From: [Pantoea] beijingensis
Lineage (GTDB): Bacteria; Pseudomonadota; Gammaproteobacteria; Enterobacterales; Enterobacteriaceae
Reading direction: 5' to 3'
NCBI RefSeq assembly: GCF_022647505.1
Contig: NZ_CP071409.1
Location: 1-64,000 of the forward strand
DNA: 64,000 nucleotides
Below are positions 9,335-17,224 of the stretch, piece after piece. Both the position numbers and the translations under genes were made by a program. Each line of letters opens with the position of its first letter. Position 1 is the first letter of the stretch. The notes under the pieces were generated by a model. The model did not search any database and had not been told where the DNA came from. It was given only the letters and a program-made list of their open reading frames with translations.

Positions 9335-9758
9335 ACCAAATCCTTCTGTTTTACATGGTTATAAAGTCAGCGCATCATAGCGGGACATCACTAGTCGAGC
9401 CACATCGGAGGGAATGATTTACCATAACATCCATATTATGAACCGCTTGAAACCGACTGTAGTTGGCAACTTCATAGTGCACTCCGTCTTGCATTCTACA
9501 GGTTCAATATCTGAATACGATATTTCAGGCGGCGAGGTAACTCACAGCCTCTTTCCACGTTTCACTTTTATCGTTCAAATAAAATGGGACAGAGTCAAAT
9601 ACAGGACTTATGGACAAAAAACAATCAACCATCCCTTCTCTAATAGTTTACTTAACTATCAGAATTGATCTGAGTCATAAAAATAACCATTTTCGGTGAT
9701 AAAAATAAATATGAATTAAGTTCAAACCTTCATTAATTTTAAATAATAGGAAACCATT
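9335..9758. other. 424-bp non-coding, AT-rich interval upstream of the hdc operon
   Basis: Divergent intergenic region between the PAAR-DUF3289 gene and the first histidine/histamine permease. An 84-codon plus-strand frame at 9414-9668 has no convincing ribosome binding site and no recognisable product. The last ~90 bp are strongly AT-rich and should contain the hdc operon promoter; I do not assign -35/-10 boxes. An AGGAA ribosome binding site precedes the ATG at 9759. Confidence 0.5.
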
Positions 9759-11105
9759 ATGGGAACAGTAAGCTCAGGCTCTGCTCATAAAATGGGAGTC
9801 ATTGCTCTTACGTTAGTAACCGCCTCCAATATGATGGGGTCGGGGGTTTTTATGTTGCCCACTAACCTGGCAGGAATTGGCTCTATATCGATATGGGGTT
9901 GGGTATTTACCATTATTGGTGTAATTGCACTGGCTTTAGTTTTTGCTAAAACCAGTTTAGTGACGCCTCGTGCGGGCGGTATTGTTGCTTATGCCAGTGA
10001 TGCATTTGGCCCCTTTATTGGATTTCAGACGACCGTTTGTTACTGGATAAGTGCATGGGTTGGTAACGTTGCTTTATTAGTTGCTGGTGTGGGTTATTTG
10101 AGTTTCTTTTTTCCGGAGCTTAAAAATCCAACCTATGGTTGTATCGCTGCCATCTTTATTTTATGGGCTTTTGTATTTCTTGCGAGCTTCGGCGCAAGGA
10201 TAGCTGGCCGTGCACAATCTTTTACTGCAGTATGTGGCCTGATCGTTATTTTAGGCGTCGGCCTGATTGGCTGGTTCTGGTTTAATCCAGAGATGTATTC
10301 CGAAGTTTATAATGCGACAGGACGGAGTAACTCCTCTGCTATTGTTTCTGCAGCATCAATGGCGTTATGGGGATTCCTGGGGATCGAATCCGCCGTTGTT
10401 TCGACGGGGCAGGTTCAGGATCCGGAACGTACCGTACCACGGGCAACGGTGATGGGGTTACTGATTGCCGCCATCTGTTACGTGGGTAGCTGTACCGTCA
10501 TCATGGGACTGGTCCCACATAACGTGCTGATCAACTCAGCAGCACCTTTCGCTGATGCTGCTCGTTATATGTTCGGTAATCTTGCCGGTAATATTGCCTC
10601 TGCACTCAGTATTATTGCTTGTTTTGGTTCCATTTCAGGTTGGCTGATCCTGCAATCTGAAGGCCCACGCGCGGGTGCTCAGCAAGGTCTTTTTCCTCAG
10701 TTTTTTGCGGATACCAATAAGCAAGATGTTCCAATGAAGAGCCTTATTTTTACCGGCGTCCTAATGAGCATTGTCCTGTTATTAACGGCCTCGCCAAACC
10801 TGGCTAAACAGTTTGAGGTTGTTATTTTAATGTCAGTTTTCGCTTCATTACTGCCTTATATGTATGCCTTAATTTCACTGCCTATTATCCTGGTATCGAA
10901 GAAAATGAACCGCGGTAGCTCTTTCATGTTTTATTGCACATTGGTTGTTATCGGCATGATCTACTGTATTTTTGCCTTACTTGGTTCGGGCGGTGACTCC
11001 ATGTTCTGGGGCATACTGATGATGATGATTACTATTCCGTTATTCTCTTTCGTTGCTGTTGGTCGAAGTAAAAAAGGGAAGACCACGCTTTATTTAGATA
11101 AATGA
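9759..11105 (+). CDS. hdcT1: APC-family antiporter, probable histidine/histamine exchanger (HdcT1-like)
   Basis: 448-aa inner-membrane transporter of the amino acid-polyamine-organocation superfamily (CadB/PotE/AdiC branch), with about 12 predicted membrane segments. The first helix has the substrate-loop signature NMMGSGVFMLP near residues 22-32, as in basic-amino-acid antiporters. WGFLGIESAVVS near residue 200 is another conserved site. It is the first gene of the hdc operon, 33 bp before the decarboxylase. Known gram-negative hdc clusters have the order hdcT1-hdc-hdcT2-hisRS, so import of histidine coupled to export of histamine is the likely job. It is paralogous to the permease at 12493. 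Substrate is inferred from context. Confidence 0.85.
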   Translation: MGTVSSGSAHKMGVIALTLVTASNMMGSGVFMLPTNLAGIGSISIWGWVFTIIGVIALALVFAKTSLVTPRAGGIVAYASDAFGPFIGFQTTVCYWISAWVGNVALLVAGVGYLSFFFPELKNPTYGCIAAIFILWAFVFLASFGARIAGRAQSFTAVCGLIVILGVGLIGWFWFNPEMYSEVYNATGRSNSSAIVSAASMALWGFLGIESAVVSTGQVQDPERTVPRATVMGLLIAAICYVGSCTVIMGLVPHNVLINSAAPFADAARYMFGNLAGNIASALSIIACFGSISGWLILQSEGPRAGAQQGLFPQFFADTNKQDVPMKSLIFTGVLMSIVLLLTASPNLAKQFEVVILMSVFASLLPYMYALISLPIILVSKKMNRGSSFMFYCTLVVIGMIYCIFALLGSGGDSMFWGILMMMITIPLFSFVAVGRSKKGKTTLYLDK

Positions 11106-11138
11106 AATCGTAAAAAAATGAATACAAGGAGTTAAAAA

Positions 11139-12275
11139 ATGACATTATCTATAGCCGATCAAAACAAACTTGATGAATTCTGGTCATATTGTGTGAAAAA
11201 TCAATATTTCAATATTGGTTATCCTGAATCTGCTGATTTTGATTATACGATTCTTGAACGTTTTATGCGTTTCTCAATCAATAACTGTGGTGACTGGGGA
11301 GAATACTGCAACTATTTATTAAACTCATTCGAGTTTGAAAAAGAAGTGATGGAGTATTTTGCTAATCTCTTTAAAATTCCGTTTGAAGAGAGCTGGGGAT
11401 ATGTTACCAATGGTGGTACTGAAGGAAATATGTTTGGCTGTTATCTGGGGCGTGAGCTTTTTCCTGATGGCACTCTTTACTACTCTAAAGATACACACTA
11501 TTCAGTAGCCAAAATTGTCAAACTATTGCGTATTAAATCCTCTGTTGTTGAATCACAGCCAAACGGTGAAATGGACTACGGTGATTTACAGCAAAAAATT
11601 AAACGCGATGGCGAAAAGCATCCTATTATTTTCGCTAATATCGGGACTACCGTGCGTGGTGCTATTGATAACATCACGACTATTCAGGCGTTAATTAAAG
11701 ATTTGGGCATTAAACGTGAGGATTACTATCTCCACGCTGATGCCGCACTTAGCGGGATGATTTTGCCCTTTGTTAACGATCCTCAACCGTTTAACTTTGC
11801 AGATGGGATTGATTCGATTGGTGTGTCTGGCCATAAAATGATCGGTTCTCCGATTCCCTGTGGCATCGTTGTCGCCAAAAAGAAAAACGTCGATCGTATT
11901 TCAGTCGAGATTGATTATATTTCCGCTCACGATAAAACCATTACAGGTTCTCGTAACGGTCATACGCCATTAATGATGTGGGAGGCCATTCGCAGCCATT
12001 CATGGAGCGACTGGCAGCGCCGCATTGAGCGGAGCCTGAATATGGCGAAATATGCGGTTAAACGATTCCAGGACGCTGGCGTAAAAGCCTGGTGTAACAA
12101 AAACTCCATTACCGTCGTATTCCCTTGTCCCTCTGAGGAGGTCTGGAAGAAACACTGCCTGGCGACGTCCGGTGACGTTGCGCACCTGATCGCGACGGCA
12201 CATCACCTGGATTCCAGCAAAATTGATGAGCTGATTGACGATGTCATTGCCGACCTGAACAAACAGGCTGCCTGA
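11139..12275 (+). CDS. hdc: PLP-dependent histidine decarboxylase
   Basis: Group II pyridoxal-phosphate decarboxylase converting L-histidine to histamine and CO2. The 378-aa length is that of the Morganella/Klebsiella-type enzyme. Visible sites are the N-terminal [15 protein letters not shown], the cofactor loop [11 protein letters not shown] (about 90-100), His120 in DTHYSV (stacks on PLP in the family), Asp201 in LHADAALSG, and the Schiff-base Lys233 in [11 protein letters not shown]. It lies between two antiporter genes and 5' of a dedicated HisRS. Proton consumption plus histamine export gives acid resistance in this class of system, and histamine can also feed siderophore synthesis. No siderophore genes are nearby, so the acid-stress role is favoured. 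Confidence 0.95.
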
Positions 12276-12280
12276 TAAAA

Positions 12281-12302
12281 GGGCAGTGATAAAACACTGC
12301 CC
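12281..12302 (+). promoter_or_regulatory. Hairpin directly after hdc
   Basis: A perfect 8-bp stem GGGCAGTG/CACTGCCC with a 6-nt A-rich loop begins 6 bp after the hdc stop. There is no T-run, so it is more likely an mRNA-stabilising or partial-termination structure than a full terminator. A second 8-bp inverted repeat (CGCAACCG at 12314-12321, CGGTTGCG at 12342-12349, then TTTCT) follows. Together they could lower expression of the downstream permease relative to hdc. Confidence 0.5.
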
Positions 12303-12492
12303 TCCAGCACGGGCGCAACCGTTGCCGAGACCAATCATTAGCGGTTGCGTTTCTCAGTCCCTGTTTTCGCGGGGACGCGCTCAGATTAACGCTTTGCCGA
12401 CAGGTTGTAACGACAAATTACGTCCGGGATGTACGTCAATGGACTCAGGTGCATATGCGATAGCGTTTATTCCCCATCTTACGAGGACCGGC

Positions 12493-13863
12493 ATGGATAA
12501 ATTCCGCATAAAGAAGAATCAAATGGGCTTATTTGCCCTGACCATGATGACAGCATCAAACATGATGGGCAGCGGCGTGTTTATGTTGCCCGCTACGCTG
12601 GCGCGGATAGGTGCTATTTCCATTTGGGGGTGGGCACTGGCATTTTTAGCGATTGCCGCACTGGCGCTCATTTTTTGCAAAACAAGCGAATTATTTCCGT
12701 GTAACGGGGGCATCATTGCCAATATTACTGCCAGTTTTGGTCCTTTCGTTGGCCTGCAAATGACCCTTTTTTACTGGTTATCGACCTGGATCGGTAACTG
12801 CGCGCTCCTGCTCGCGGGAGTCGGTTATCTCTCTTATTTCTTTCCCTCTTTGCATAACCCGCTTTACGGAACCGGTGCCTGTATCCTTATTCTCTGGCTT
12901 TCCGTTATTTGGGGATTAAGGGGGGCAAAACTGGTGGGCTATACGCAGCTATTTACCGGCGGATGTATGGTGCTCGCTATCCTTAGCATCGGTGTTTTGG
13001 GCTGGGGGCACTTTGACGCTGAGCGTTATCATGCGGCCTGGAATCTCAGTGGTGTCAGTAATTATCAGGCTATCATCAATGCCGCAATGATATCGCTATG
13101 GGGGTTTTTAGGTATTGAATCTGCGTCGGTCTCTTTTAGTCAGGTTAAAAATCCTCGCCGTACTGTTCCCCTGGCAACGCTATTAGGATTAGGCATTGCC
13201 GGGCTGTGCTACGCCAGTTCAACCAACGTTATGATCGGCATACTTCCTCATCATGCACTGATCAACTCCTCTTCGCCATTTGCCGACAGCGCCTGCGCCA
13301 TGTGGGGAACGAACGCCGGATTAGCTATTTCTGTTATGGTGGTTATCGCTTGTTTTGGTGCAATACCCGGCTGGCAAATCCTGCAAACGGAAGTCCCCAA
13401 GGCTGCGGCGGAAGAGGGGTTATTACCCGCATTTTTCGCCCGCACCAATCGCCATGGCGTTCCTGCTGGCGGGCTGGTATTTACGGCTTCACTGATGACC
13501 TTGTTGTTGCTACTCACGCTCTCCCCTAATCTGCAAAACCAGTTCACAACGATTATCACCCTGGCTGTCTCGGCAAGTTTGTTTCCCTACGCTTTTGCCG
13601 CGGTATCGCTGCCGGTGATGATCGCTCTAAATCACCAGAAAAAAAATACCACCTTTTATTACTATTGCTGCTTAAGCCTGGTGGCGTTGTGTTTTATTTC
13701 CCTCGCGTTCATTACCGAGAGTTCGTCAACCGTGGTATGGGGGATCGTTTTACAAATAGCCACGCTCCCTCTTTATCTCTTATACATTGCGCGGCGCCAC
13801 CGACGGGAAAGTCGTGTCTCGCAGCAATCTCTCATCGGGCAATTAAACAAGGAGCTGTTATGA
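12493..13863 (+). CDS. hdcT2: Second APC-family antiporter of the hdc operon (HdcT2-like)
   Basis: 456-aa transporter, clearly paralogous to HdcT1 (NMMGSGVFMLPA, WGFLGIESASVS, PHHALINSSSPFADSA). I chose the ATG at 12493, preceded by GAGGACCG, because it gives the family N-terminus MDKFRIKKNQMGLFALTMM. The upstream in-frame extension to 12286 covers the hairpin region and is not credible. The 217-bp gap after hdc contains two inverted repeats. The stop overlaps the hisRS start by 4 bp (ATGA), indicating coupled translation. The exact substrate, or whether it only runs in one direction, cannot be read from sequence. Confidence 0.85.
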   Translation: MDKFRIKKNQMGLFALTMMTASNMMGSGVFMLPATLARIGAISIWGWALAFLAIAALALIFCKTSELFPCNGGIIANITASFGPFVGLQMTLFYWLSTWIGNCALLLAGVGYLSYFFPSLHNPLYGTGACILILWLSVIWGLRGAKLVGYTQLFTGGCMVLAILSIGVLGWGHFDAERYHAAWNLSGVSNYQAIINAAMISLWGFLGIESASVSFSQVKNPRRTVPLATLLGLGIAGLCYASSTNVMIGILPHHALINSSSPFADSACAMWGTNAGLAISVMVVIACFGAIPGWQILQTEVPKAAAEEGLLPAFFARTNRHGVPAGGLVFTASLMTLLLLLTLSPNLQNQFTTIITLAVSASLFPYAFAAVSLPVMIALNHQKKNTTFYYYCCLSLVALCFISLAFITESSSTVVWGIVLQIATLPLYLLYIARRHRRESRVSQQSLIGQLNKELL

Positions 13864-15119
13864 ACAAGATTCAGGCCATACGCGGTATGCGTGACGTTCT
13901 TCCGGACGAAACCCCCATCTGGCAGTGGCTGGAGCGGAAGTTTCACCACATGGCTTTCCACTACGGATATCAGGAAATGCGTTTGCCCTTACTTGAACCT
14001 GTTGCTTTATTCGAACGTGCCGTTGGGGAAGCAACCGATATTGTATCCAAAGAAATGTATGATTTTACTGATAAAAGTGGTGAACACATAACGCTCCGTC
14101 CTGAGGGAACCAGCGGATGTATGCGTGCCGTGCTGGAAAATAATATGTGTTACAACAAATCTCAGCGTTTGTGGTATCAGGGGCCCATGTTTCGCTATGA
14201 ACGACCGCAAAAAGGTCGGCTACGCCAGTTTACACAATTTGGTGTCGAGGCCTTCGGCATGTCCGGTGCCGATGTTGATGCCGAGCTGATTTTTATGGTT
14301 CGTGATCTGTTTGAGGACTTAGGTATTACGCAAAACGTTCGTCTCGAAATTAACTCGCTTGGGACGCCTGCAGAACGACTGGCACATCGTCAGCAGCTCG
14401 TGCAGTGGTTCACTGACCATAAATCACAATTAGACGACGACAGTCTGAAACGTCTGGCCGTTAATCCATTACGTATCCTGGACAGTAAAAATCCGGAAAT
14501 GCAGGCGATAATTGAGCAGGCTCCGCGTTTACTCGATTTCCTTGAAGAAGAGTCACGACAGCATTTTGCGACATTGCGGAAGTTACTCGATGAAGCGGGC
14601 ATCGCTTATCGCATTAACCCGCGTCTGGTCAGGGGATTAGATTATTATTCTCGTACTGTCTTTGAGTGGATCACCGATGATTTGGGGTCGCAGGGAACCG
14701 TATGCGGTGGTGGCCGTTACGATGGCCTTGCTGAGCTTTTTAATGGCAAGAAGCTGCCTGCCTGTGGTTTTGCTATTGGTATCGAGCGCTTAATATTGTT
14801 GCTGCAAGTGGTTTATGGCGACCAGAATCCACAGTGGCAAACTCATCCTGATGTGGTCATCACCAGTGAGATGGATGACGACGGTGTCTGCGCGCAACTG
14901 CTGGCCTGCACGCTACGACGTGACTTGCCGAGCTTGAATATATTAACCGACTGTAGCGATGCGAAATTAAAACGTCAGCACCAAAATGCGCTTAAAAGTG
15001 GTTGCCGCTATATTATTACCGTTAATGCGGACAAACAAATTCGCTTTTGGAATTTGCAGGATAATAGACAGGAAACATTAATAATCGAAGAGATAAAGAA
15101 ACAACTGTTATCTTCATGA
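13860..15119 (+). CDS. hisRS: Second histidyl-tRNA synthetase linked to histidine decarboxylase
   Basis: 419-aa class II synthetase charging tRNA-His. The start is the ATG at 13860 overlapping the permease stop (ATGA); N-terminus MNKIQAIRGMRDVLP is canonical. All catalytic landmarks are intact: RPEGTSGCMRA, motif 2 WYQGPMFRYERPQKGR, QFGVEAFG, HisA loop LVRGLDYYSRTVFEW with the catalytic Arg, GGGRYDGL, and motif 3 CGFAIGIERL. A C-terminal anticodon-binding domain is present. Because hisS is normally elsewhere (beside ispG), this is taken as a cluster-specific copy, as in described hdcT1-hdc-hdcT2-hisRS clusters. A plausible role is to keep protein synthesis going while the decarboxylase depletes histidine. 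Confidence 0.92.
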   Translation: MNKIQAIRGMRDVLPDETPIWQWLERKFHHMAFHYGYQEMRLPLLEPVALFERAVGEATDIVSKEMYDFTDKSGEHITLRPEGTSGCMRAVLENNMCYNKSQRLWYQGPMFRYERPQKGRLRQFTQFGVEAFGMSGADVDAELIFMVRDLFEDLGITQNVRLEINSLGTPAERLAHRQQLVQWFTDHKSQLDDDSLKRLAVNPLRILDSKNPEMQAIIEQAPRLLDFLEEESRQHFATLRKLLDEAGIAYRINPRLVRGLDYYSRTVFEWITDDLGSQGTVCGGGRYDGLAELFNGKKLPACGFAIGIERLILLLQVVYGDQNPQWQTHPDVVITSEMDDDGVCAQLLACTLRRDLPSLNILTDCSDAKLKRQHQNALKSGCRYIITVNADKQIRFWNLQDNRQETLIIEEIKKQLLSS

Positions 15120-15183
15120 TATAGATAAAAACGATCCATTATATCTGGGCGTTTAGCAGCAGTAAAATGGCAAGTCTGAAGGG

Positions 15184-15213
15184 CCCGGTAATTTGTTCAG
15201 GTAGATTGCCGGG
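15184..15213. repeat. Hairpin upstream of the RAYT-HisRS fusion
   Basis: A 9-bp stem CCCGGTAAT/ATTGCCGGG (one G-T pair) with a 12-nt loop sits 173 bp before the fusion gene. It is followed by GGCGGTGAATGGTGCTTCCGGATAA, so GCCGG and CCGGA blocks flank a further short arm. REP elements bound by RAYT proteins begin GCCGG and form such hairpins. The resemblance is suggestive only; there is no clear REP consensus. Confidence 0.4.
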
Positions 15214-15385
15214 CGGTGAATGGTGCTTCCGGATAAATTTTTAATACGGCTATTAAAATCATGGGTTGCAGAGTAAGAAGTGGGGAGTAAATTTCTTATT
15301 TTTTCTTTTATGGTTTCTGTGATTTTTAATTTTCTGATAAGCAATAATTAAATTTATTCTTTATTATAAGAATTGTGTTGTCGTT

Positions 15386-17224
15386 ATGACGAGAAAAAGT
15401 AGATTATTTGTTGATGGCATTCCTCATCTTGTGAAACTGTCCGGTCATAATAATGGCGTTATTTTTAAGGATGAGAATGATTTCCGGAGTTTCTTTGATT
15501 GCATTGAAAATGCATTAACTATCTATGCGATAAAATTACATGCCTATAATTTGTCCGCCCGGAAAATTTTATTACTGCTCTCCGCACCAGATAAGGAACG
15601 ACTGGGACGTTTTATGCAGTACCTGAGTAAGGGGTACTCTCAGGTTTTTAATCAACGCCATCAGCGGCATGGTACGCTTTGGGATGGCCGTTACAGCTGT
15701 TGCCCCGTCGAACCTAATGCCTATTTTTTATTAACGAAAAAATATGTCGAATGCCATTGTGTTGATGATTTGGGCCATCATAGTTTCGCCGGCGAGCCAG
15801 CTTCACGGGTTACTCCTCATGACGAGTATTTACGCTTGGGTGATAGCGCATCCCAACGGCTAACTGTTTATCAACGTTTTTGTCTGGGCAGGATAGGACC
15901 GGCGTTAATTACCCGTATTGAATCCGCTTTAACGCAAAACTGCTTACTTGCGACGGCGACCTATACTCAAACGCTTGAGCAGAAATACCAGCGAAATCTA
16001 CGCCCACGGAAAATTGGTCGGCCAAAAAAGTACGAACATAATCCACTGGAAAGCTGGGAATGGCTGGGGAAGAAGGCCGGTTATCTGCTGCATCAGTACT
16101 GTTACCGTGAAATAAGAATCCCACTGCTGGAACAGCAAAATGAAAATACAGGCCACTCCTTTTCCGGCGAGTCTGACGCGTTATGTTTCAGTCATCAGGC
16201 ACTATTGCGCGGTGATGGTACGATGGGATGTTTACGGTTGTTATCGCAACATCAGAGTTTACAAACGGAAACCCGTGTCTGGTATCAGGGCGCAATGTTC
16301 CGGCGCCAACATCAGCAAAATATAAATCAATTTCACCAGTTAGGTGTGGAAGCATTTGGCTATTCCGGCATTGGTATTGAAATTGAACTTATTTCTCTAC
16401 AGTTTGATTTTTTTAAATCACTGCAAATACTGCCATTTATTGAATTAAAAATGAATACAATAGGAAGCACTGATGATTTCACGCGTTTTCGTAGCGAGTT
16501 GCGGCAATATTTTCTTCCTTACGCTTCTCTGTTTAATCCGCAGCAGCATCGCTGGTTTGCCTCGTCTCCTGAACGTTTGTTAACCGATAACGACATATTG
16601 ATGCAAAGGCTGGCAGAGAAAGCGCCAAAACTGGATGACGTACTCTCTGCGCACTCACACGAGCGATTCACAAAACTTTGCACTTCCCTGACCGCATTAA
16701 ATATCCCCTTTATCCACGATAAAAACCTCTTTCCGATTAATGACTACAACGATTTTCTTTTTGAATGGAATACCGATTCGCCACATAACCACGGCGTGCT
16801 GTGTCGGGGAGGGCGTTATGATAACAGCGCCAGTAGTCTCATTGGTCACCCGGTATCTGCTTGCGGCTTTGCTTTTATGCTGGAACCTATCATGCAGCTA
16901 TTAAACAGTACTCAAAGAAGCAAGGGTTGCGGAAAGCAGGTTGATATAGTGCTCATTCCTGAGCAGGAGAGATCTCGGGATATTGCGCTATTGCTGGGAC
17001 GCAAGTTGCGGCGCAATTTTCCTCACCTGAGTATTCTGAACGATTGTTCTACGCTACGTTTGTCCACCAGACAGAAAAACGCGCAACGCCAGGGGGCCAG
17101 ATTCATCATTCTGATTGATGGCTGCGAGAATGAAGCCACATTCTGTGATGAAACCAACCATTTCTGGCAGCAGATTCCCCTTAGTGATGTTGTCGCCCAC
17201 CTTAGTCACGCGCTAATGATGTAA
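15386..17224 (+). CDS. RAYT (REP-associated tyrosine transposase) domain fused to a degenerate HisRS
   Basis: 612-aa two-part protein with no family I know. Residues 1-215 follow a full RAYT: MTRKSRLFVDGIPHLVKLSG, FNQRHQRHGTLWDGRYS, KKYVE (candidate catalytic Tyr120), VTPHDEYLRLGDSASQRLTVY and the C-terminal GRPKK. The HUH metal site is lost: where RAYTs read NHVH, this reads RKIL (59-62). Residues ~222-612 follow HisRS: RGDGT (275-279), WYQGAMFRR (299-307), QLGVEAFG (318-325), CRGGRYD (473-479) and an anticodon-binding-like C-terminus. The catalytic Arg of RGLDYY is Phe449 and the motif 3 Arg is Pro501, so aminoacylation is unlikely. Residues contacting histidine (Arg306, Gln318, Glu322, Tyr454) are kept. 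It sits 266 bp after the hdc operon on the same strand. A histidine or tRNA-His sensor joined to a hairpin-binding module is my inference. Confidence 0.85.
   Translation: MTRKSRLFVDGIPHLVKLSGHNNGVIFKDENDFRSFFDCIENALTIYAIKLHAYNLSARKILLLLSAPDKERLGRFMQYLSKGYSQVFNQRHQRHGTLWDGRYSCCPVEPNAYFLLTKKYVECHCVDDLGHHSFAGEPASRVTPHDEYLRLGDSASQRLTVYQRFCLGRIGPALITRIESALTQNCLLATATYTQTLEQKYQRNLRPRKIGRPKKYEHNPLESWEWLGKKAGYLLHQYCYREIRIPLLEQQNENTGHSFSGESDALCFSHQALLRGDGTMGCLRLLSQHQSLQTETRVWYQGAMFRRQHQQNINQFHQLGVEAFGYSGIGIEIELISLQFDFFKSLQILPFIELKMNTIGSTDDFTRFRSELRQYFLPYASLFNPQQHRWFASSPERLLTDNDILMQRLAEKAPKLDDVLSAHSHERFTKLCTSLTALNIPFIHDKNLFPINDYNDFLFEWNTDSPHNHGVLCRGGRYDNSASSLIGHPVSACGFAFMLEPIMQLLNSTQRSKGCGKQVDIVLIPEQERSRDIALLLGRKLRRNFPHLSILNDCSTLRLSTRQKNAQRQGARFIILIDGCENEATFCDETNHFWQQIPLSDVVAHLSHALMM

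Follow-up and report, generated by a model that had tools for sequence, protein, structure and literature searches.

Why should a domain derived from a transposase be joined, in one protein, to a domain derived from a histidyl-tRNA synthetase (HisRS), and why should that protein lie beside the genes for making histamine? The question is raised by a gene at positions 15386..17224 (forward strand) in the first 64,000 nucleotides of contig NZ_CP071409.1 of [Pantoea] beijingensis (RefSeq assembly GCF_022647505.1), a stretch referred to here as the window. A first-pass annotation, made from the letters of this DNA, read the product as a RAYT transposase domain fused to an inactivated HisRS, and proposed a domesticated regulator of the adjacent histidine decarboxylase (hdc) operon that binds a nucleic acid hairpin and reads histidine or uncharged tRNA-His. 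Much of that proposal stands, in that the fusion is predicted to be catalytically dead, is tied to hdc, is under selection and has a counterpart in a RAYT-end-like site in the hdc promoter; what finds no support is the hairpin target. In the reading favored here, to which we give a probability of about 0.8, the fusion would be a local one-component regulator of the hdc operon, its RAYT half binding an operator before the antiporter gene hdcT1 and its dead HisRS half sensing histidine or histamine. By the same comparisons it is probably the hidden histidine- or histamine-sensing switch of the histamine genes in histamine-making gut and food-spoilage bacteria. The family is hidden because its members are misannotated: the named homologues are mostly recorded as histidyl-tRNA synthetase or as ATP phosphoribosyltransferase regulatory subunit. 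Morganella, Klebsiella aerogenes and Raoultella are histamine formers, known from histamine fish poisoning and discussed as sources of gut histamine.

The two halves of the fusion protein

The gene for the RAYT-HisRS fusion, a putative hdc regulator, is a single unbroken frame of 612 codons running from an ATG at 15386 to a stop at 17224 and encoding 612 amino acids, and profiles recognize both of the domains that the first-pass annotation had placed in it: Pfam finds Y1_Tnp at residues 27-122 (1.4e-6) and tRNA-synt_His at residues 222-356 (8.4e-19). A protein search with the fusion returned 39 matches of at least 435 bits, among them the sequence of the query itself and two fragments; the 36 further homologues cover both halves, at 38-71% identity to the query. 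Together with the query they form the alignment of 37 fusions used below (alignment A1), which omits the identical P0002 and the fragments P0013 and P0034, and in which four homologues begin slightly late yet extend into the RAYT half. No additional fusion came up among the listed matches of a profile search (best 120 of 313), whose scores drop from 765 bits, or 551 in the case of a fragment, to the 290 bits of plain HisRS. One protein cluster in the homologue search, named Klebsiella aerogenes, represents 553 member sequences. The ratio of nonsynonymous to synonymous substitution rates (dN/dS) is 0.04-0.12 for the whole gene (10 of 17 pairs with computable dS) and 0.02-0.12 for the separate halves; both halves are under purifying selection. 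Two separate genes brought together by a sequencing or assembly join, the danger that the first-pass annotation had named, or a pseudogene, are ruled out by the two-part homologues, the alignment and the dN/dS values. A plasmid or phage origin was likewise set aside: one K. aerogenes record labelled as a plasmid has the whole fusion, and no phage record reaches 80% coverage. A phrogs search gave chance-level scores. Two short proteins, P0122 and P0123, match just the RAYT half, at 70-73% identity, and one of them is a 121-residue "transposase" of Raoultella ornithinolytica; they are probably broken or truncated fusion genes of some strains.

The RAYT half (residues 1-217; 15386..16036, forward strand) ends in a basic GRPKK tail encoded at 16016-16030. 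Its Y1 homology is recognized by PF01797 (1.4e-6, 28.8 bits, cut-off 23) and by matches down to an E value of 2e-26 with stand-alone relatives of 26-36% identity. Such relatives were found in other Enterobacterales, in 37 of 247 genomes (the window's own genome counted), and furnished 29 loci for comparison, 21 of which gave a usable frame. Both histidines of the HUH motif are present in 20 of these 21 relatives but in none of the 37 fusions, the first histidine surviving in two; the column of the catalytic tyrosine holds tyrosine in 17 fusions and phenylalanine in 20. The GRP.K tail, which we take to resemble an AT-hook, is invariant in the 37 fusions, and 5 of the 21 relatives carry it. A profile search of the PDB with 12 sequences of the RAYT half gave weak matches headed by the ISDra2 transposase (E 0.12). 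Judged by these residues, the half is a nuclease-dead Y1 transposase domain.

The HisRS-like half (residues 222-583; 16049..17134, forward strand) is nearly whole, reaching through the C-terminal domain. Over residues 221-583 the hisS profile scores 179 bits, below its curated cut-off of 286.75, and the HisZ profile TIGR00443 scores 81.6 bits against a cut-off of 271.65; some records still label homologues as HisZ-type. The half matches HisRS structures at a high root-mean-square deviation, mostly 7-8 Å, so the claim is limited to the fold: the C-terminal half has a HisRS fold, and pocket geometry lies outside this claim. At the aligned columns, Arg259, presumably catalytic, and Arg311, presumably the motif 3 arginine, are each retained in 0 of 37 fusions, R121 in 3 and R113 in 29. 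E83 is replaced by aspartate in 30 and kept in 7, T85 is threonine in 36 and serine in one, and Q127, E131, Y264 and Y288 are present in all 37; the first three of these we take to line the histidine pocket, whose retention the first-pass annotation had pointed out. The HisRS half is accordingly predicted to be catalytically dead with its amine and imidazole pocket retained, and the earlier view of two silenced halves, motif 3 arginine included, is borne out at the aligned columns. Its naming of Phe449 as the residue in place of the catalytic arginine fared only in part: the loss at the aligned column holds, and the register there is uncertain, since the loop has a one-residue deletion; MAFFT sets Pro450 beneath R259, and phmmer leaves a gap there. 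In 7 of the 37 fusions an arginine lies one column away.

The second HisRS gene of the hdc cluster, hisRS2, keeps E83, R113, R121, Q127, E131, R259, Y264 and R311 intact in 22 of 22 sequences. In a tree of 61 HisRS rows (18 of the 37 fusions, 14 of the 22 hisRS2 and 29 housekeeping enzymes) the fusions form a single clade (support 100/100), and fusions and hisRS2 together split from housekeeping HisRS (100/99). Because of these two groupings, a single origin of the HisRS halves sampled would be the simplest history.

Could the fusion instead act on tRNA-His, or on HisRS- or HisG-type partners, as a HisZ-like subunit or tRNA sensor, with the RAYT half a vestige or a nucleic acid clamp and hdc control exerted after transcription? 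Such a role would suit a HisRS half that is almost complete, and the clusters of all 20 fusion loci include an intact-looking HisRS gene. It sits poorly with the motif 2 loop, which in HisRS touches the tRNA acceptor end and in the fusion is shorter and altered; with a profile score nearer HisS (179 bits) than HisZ (82 bits); with a RAYT half under comparable purifying selection and ending in its invariant tail; and with the RAYT-end-like site in the hdcT1 promoter of 27 of 27 clusters, described next. We regard this alternative as quite unlikely. The motif 2 loop also makes uncharged tRNA-His, one of the two signals first suggested, the less likely one.

A conserved site before hdcT1 and the ends of RAYT genes

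What, then, might a silenced transposase domain recognize? In the poorly conserved DNA before hdcT1 lies one conserved site, AAATAAAAGGGGAC[AG]GAGTCA, an A-tract followed by GGGGAC[AG]GAGTCA; the intergenic surroundings have a median conservation of 0.44 against about 0.8 for the site (12 representatives). The window's copy, the putative operator CAAATAAAATGGGACAGAGTCAAA, occupies 9576..9599 (forward strand), its GGGAC core beginning at 9586, 173 bp before hdcT1. It is followed 79 bp downstream of the core by a CRP/FNR-like box, TTGATCTGAGTCAT (9665..9678, forward strand), which is a consensus match only. A first survey found the operator in 20 of 21 clusters, the exception, L049, having just 150 bp upstream, and it recurred in all 7 further clusters (L186, L188, L190, L195, L196, L004 and L007), making 27 of 27 clusters with enough upstream DNA, or 27 of the 28 fusion clusters looked at; the count leaves out L049 (too little DNA), L002 (no hdcT1), ten repeat-contig loci and L198. 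Across the 27, the operator stands 167-188 bp from the hdcT1 start (standard deviation 6.8). The box lies 88-109 bp from the hdcT1 ATG (standard deviation 7.3). The distance from operator to box is far tighter, 77-79 bp (standard deviation 0.65) in the 21 clusters that fit a strict box pattern; a relaxed pattern adds L186, L188 and L195 (79, 78 and 79 bp), for 24 of 27. Whether the fusion gene is divergent or lies kilobases downstream, the operator retains its position and orientation with respect to hdcT1. Its right half is variable, most of all in L044, L045 and L007, which retain GGGAC[AG]GA and not GAGTCA. In L044 and L045, one Erwinia group with the operator at 9798 in each, the right half differs (GACGGAACGCG and ACAGATCGAG), the flanks form an A/T inverted repeat, and the fusions are diverged (39-40% identity); the altered operator may reflect a shift of specificity along with the diverged fusion.

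The likely provenance of this site became apparent from the stand-alone RAYT relatives. When the longest flank-to-flank inverted repeat was picked at each of their 29 loci without reference to any motif, it held GGG[AT]C[AG] in 19, as in AAATAAAAGGGGTCAGAGTC, and repeats of at least 14 bp occurred in 19 of 29, whereas 145 shuffled pairs reached 14 at most. A pattern search found inward-pointing copies in 16 of 29 left and 18 of 29 right flanks, against an expectation of 0.014 per shuffled left flank. A matrix built from 44 RAYT ends and run on 19 clusters and the window ranked the operator above every other site of its locus in 19 of 19; in the 64-kb window the operator came first at 22.9 bits, followed by a site of 9.6, and five hdc loci that have no fusion gave no site above 11.6. 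The operator matches the stand-alone end consensus at up to 21 of 23 defined positions (L033; 19 of 23 in the window). Two published studies describe, for some TIRYT genes, flanking inverted repeats that contain GGGGWSAS, a consensus that the hdc site fits (PMC3733652, PMC6006769). One stand-alone locus, L140, has ends that contain a perfect palindrome, TTGGGGTCAGAACATGTTCTGACCCCAA. Weaker RAYT-end-like second sites were seen in L036 (9943), L043 (7433) and L040 (21280), at 17.0-18.2 bits; they are not conserved, and one, directly upstream of the divergent fusion gene of Erwinia persicina, is a possible autoregulation site.

The fusion genes themselves mostly lack such ends. Among 20 fusion loci the longest inverted repeat in 600-bp flanks measured 0-13 bp, in a test that did not search for repetitive extragenic palindrome (REP) hairpins, and the motif fell within such a repeat in one locus (L047, 11 bp). 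One might ask whether the site before hdcT1 is a leftover transposon end of the RAYT ancestor, functionless today. It is of the same sequence type as RAYT ends, and each cluster has one strong copy. A relic would hardly be expected, though, to hold its place and orientation to hdcT1 with the fusion gene kilobases away, to keep its distance to the box within 2 bp across genera, or to persist amid much less similar intergenic DNA (the medians given above); and in divergent loci the site is oriented opposite to the upstream end of a stand-alone RAYT. This explanation is very improbable.

Alternatively, some other regulator binds the promoter site, its likeness to RAYT ends being chance or a common A-tract and G-run element, and the fusion has another role. 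The assignment of the fusion to the site was, after all, drawn by comparing sequences; the site is short and rich in A and G, its exact core 12-mers occur in genomes at the background rate, and the weakest operator scores overlap those of unrelated second sites in other loci. Against this stand the match at up to 21 of 23 positions, the first rank of the operator in 19 of 19 loci, the motif's status as longest flank repeat in most RAYT genes examined, and the absence of the site from one complete hdc cluster that has no fusion. On balance a different regulator is quite unlikely.

With binding of the operator by the RAYT half as the preferred reading, the form of the target deserves comment. 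A hairpin, as first envisaged, was tried and rejected: folding z-scores were -0.8 to 1.2 for 18 of 20 operators, the exceptions being L045 (-3.0) and L033 (-2.1, its stem mostly outside the core), and 19 of the 29 RAYT relatives are TIRYT-like, flanked by GGG[AT]C inverted repeats (a search for REPs was not part of the comparison). A genomic repeat family was also rejected, as 20 genomes held 0-8 exact core 12-mers each, no excess over a reversed-pattern control, with a pattern that misses several operators, including those of Morganella. A promoter scan scored its predicted promoters below the shuffled mean and gave 15 terminator-like sites.

The histamine cluster across genomes

The cluster to which the operator belongs opens with hdcT1, a histidine-histamine antiporter (9759..11105; NCBIfam TIGR04298, 857.6 bits, cut-off 750), followed by hdc, a pyridoxal phosphate-dependent histidine decarboxylase (11139..12275; NCBIfam NF002748, 617 bits, cut-off 305), by hdcT2, a second antiporter-like gene found in some clusters only (12484..13863; TIGR04298, 470 bits, under the cut-off of 750), and by hisRS2 (13860..15119; TIGR00442, 457 bits, cut-off 287), all on the forward strand. 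The setting beside an hdc operon is thus as first described. How firmly is the fusion bound to it? Twenty fusion loci (L031-L050) were drawn from the best 80 of 239 contig matches, the matches past L050 covering the HisRS half only; they come from Citrobacter, Raoultella, Pantoea, Erwinia, Pluralibacter, Morganella, Tatumella, Rosenbergiella, Izhakiella and a metagenome-assembled genome named Pseudogulbenkiania. The genes hdcT1, hdc and hisRS2 adjoin the fusion in 20 of 20, in the order hdcT1-hdc-(hdcT2)-hisRS2-fusion in 12 and with the fusion divergent from hdcT1 in 8 (4 Morganella, 4 Erwinia). Within the window's family (Enterobacteriaceae in the GTDB sense), hdc is found at E<=1e-100 in 12 of 392 sampled genomes, each of which also carries the fusion, so the neighborhood whose lack of conservation would have counted against the first-pass annotation is conserved. 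K. aerogenes NCTC10006 has the fusion under the annotation hisS_3, adjoining hisS_2 and hdc, and operator and box are also present, 79 bp apart.

In the wider order, hdc scored above the family cut-off in 9 of 394 sampled genomes, and the fusion was found in the window's genome only and was absent from the other 8 hdc-positive genomes of that sample. Because of these 8, the fusion is a trait of the enterobacterial hdc cluster, not of every hdc gene. G045, from another family, has a complete set of antiporter, hdc and hisRS2 with neither the fusion nor, as far as found, the operator. In G070, also without the fusion, antiporter and hdc share a 4.2-kb contig, the genome being 75% complete, and six more genomes without the fusion have an hdc of 44-63% identity and no antiporter, two of them on contigs below 9 kb.

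In the window itself, the hdc cluster (9335-17224) has its nearest relatives in Citrobacter and Raoultella, whose fusions are 70-72% identical to the window's, and the fusions in genomes of the window's own genus are 41-46% identical to it. Most genes of the cluster have a GC content below that of the flanks, hdcT2 being the exception. Owing to these nearest relatives and the lower GC content, the cluster of this genome was likely acquired horizontally.

A proposed switch and its known relatives

Together, these observations suggest the following model. The dead Y1 half, having retained RAYT/TIRYT end specificity, would bind AAATAAAAGGGGAC[AG]GAGTCA, with the CRP/FNR-like box some 80 bp downstream, reading the site as duplex DNA; its GRP.K tail could read the A-tract. 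Duplex DNA is a likelier target than an RNA hairpin because the site lies upstream of the box, and so probably upstream of the transcript, and forms no consistent hairpin. The HisRS half would sense histidine, or histamine, and the ligand would change the seating of the protein at the operator relative to an activator of the CRP/FNR family, the changed seating switching hdcT1-hdc-(hdcT2)-hisRS2. Joint action with such an activator is suggested by the fixed spacing of operator and box. Direct binding, the choice of ligand, the dimer form and the sign of regulation are the conjectural parts of this model; as to the sign, activation is somewhat favored, because the operator lies upstream at fixed spacing. 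A bolder version may be entertained as a tentative prospect, itself rather doubtful: a new family of transcription factors in which a dead Y1 (HUH-fold) transposase reads the transposon-end sequence of its ancestors, as duplex DNA, in a host promoter and a dead HisRS senses histamine, the product of the pathway, and not histidine, acting as an intracellular bacterial histamine receptor. An arginine lost from the HisRS half is presumably the contact to the carboxylate of histidine, and if its loss is real, histamine could be the preferred ligand of the pocket.

Several observations weigh against the regulator model. Three of the 27 clusters have no recognizable box even under the relaxed pattern, namely L036 and L041 (Erwinia persicina) and L004 (the window's genus), and the 27 are not independent cases, because several come from close relatives (five, for example, from Morganella or the like). 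The stand-alone ends read mostly GGGGTC and the hdc site GGGGAC; 10 of the 29 stand-alone loci have no motif in their longest flank repeat, and the motif stands in both flanks in 14. The 44 ends of the matrix were chosen by a pattern that the operator had suggested, the longest-repeat analysis being the one motif-free comparison. Operator scores span 13.4-32.2 bits and second sites reach 18.2 (L043) and 17.0 (L036, L040), so that L044 (15.6) and L045 (13.4) are top sites within their own loci only. As a negative control there is just one complete antiporter-hdc-hisRS cluster that lacks the fusion, G045, and since it belongs to another family, common descent could explain the absence of both operator and fusion. 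A single operator per promoter is odd for the HisRS fold, which is dimeric, and the structural comparison covered the HisRS half of the fusion, with the RAYT half outside it.

If the model is true, the histamine genes have a local regulator with a testable operator. It would also mean that a Y1 transposase gave up its nuclease, retained its recognition of end sequences and was turned into a transcription factor, with an aminoacyl-tRNA synthetase recruited as the sensor of that factor. A published account gives the Morganella cluster as hdcT1-hdc-hdcT2-hisRS, and its main text contains neither of the words "transposase" and "promoter" (PMC12072131). In the portion of the open-access literature covered, no description of a RAYT-HisRS fusion was found; subscription journals lie mostly outside that portion, and absence from print is to that extent unproven. 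A search on the letters of the operator motif gave nothing relevant among the matches listed.

How does the fusion compare with known systems? Its N-terminal half is homologous to RAYT/TIRYT proteins of the TnpA-REP family at 26-36% identity, but it has lost the HUH motif in 37 of 37 cases and exchanged tyrosine for phenylalanine in 20, the longest inverted repeat of its gene flanks holds the motif at just 1 of 20 loci, its genomes show no excess of the core elsewhere, and it carries a HisRS-like domain (PMC3733652, PMC6006769, as far as consulted). With HisRS and HisZ the C-terminal half shares the HisRS fold and the pocket residues; it differs in having no catalytic arginines at the aligned columns, in being joined to a transposase-derived half and in its place beside hdc. 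The HisRS-like domain of Gcn2 is a further relative for comparison. TldR proteins are nuclease-dead, RNA-guided transcription factors derived from TnpB; there, as proposed for the fusion, a transposon nuclease loses catalysis, retains target recognition and turns transcription factor, but the ancestor of the fusion is a TnpA-like Y1 enzyme, and a metabolite-pocket domain is attached. BirA combines a winged helix DNA-binding domain with an active, class II synthetase-like enzyme, and the fusion as modelled here would share with it the design in which a DNA-binding module is joined to a synthetase-like fold that senses the ligand; in the fusion, however, each half appears inactive, and DNA binding would fall to a transposase. 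We know of no transcription factor in which either half, a Y1 transposase or a dead HisRS, serves in such a role, and for that reason the kind of protein is rated as new, while the underlying logic, in which an enzyme fold serves as the sensor for a DNA-binding module, is already known.

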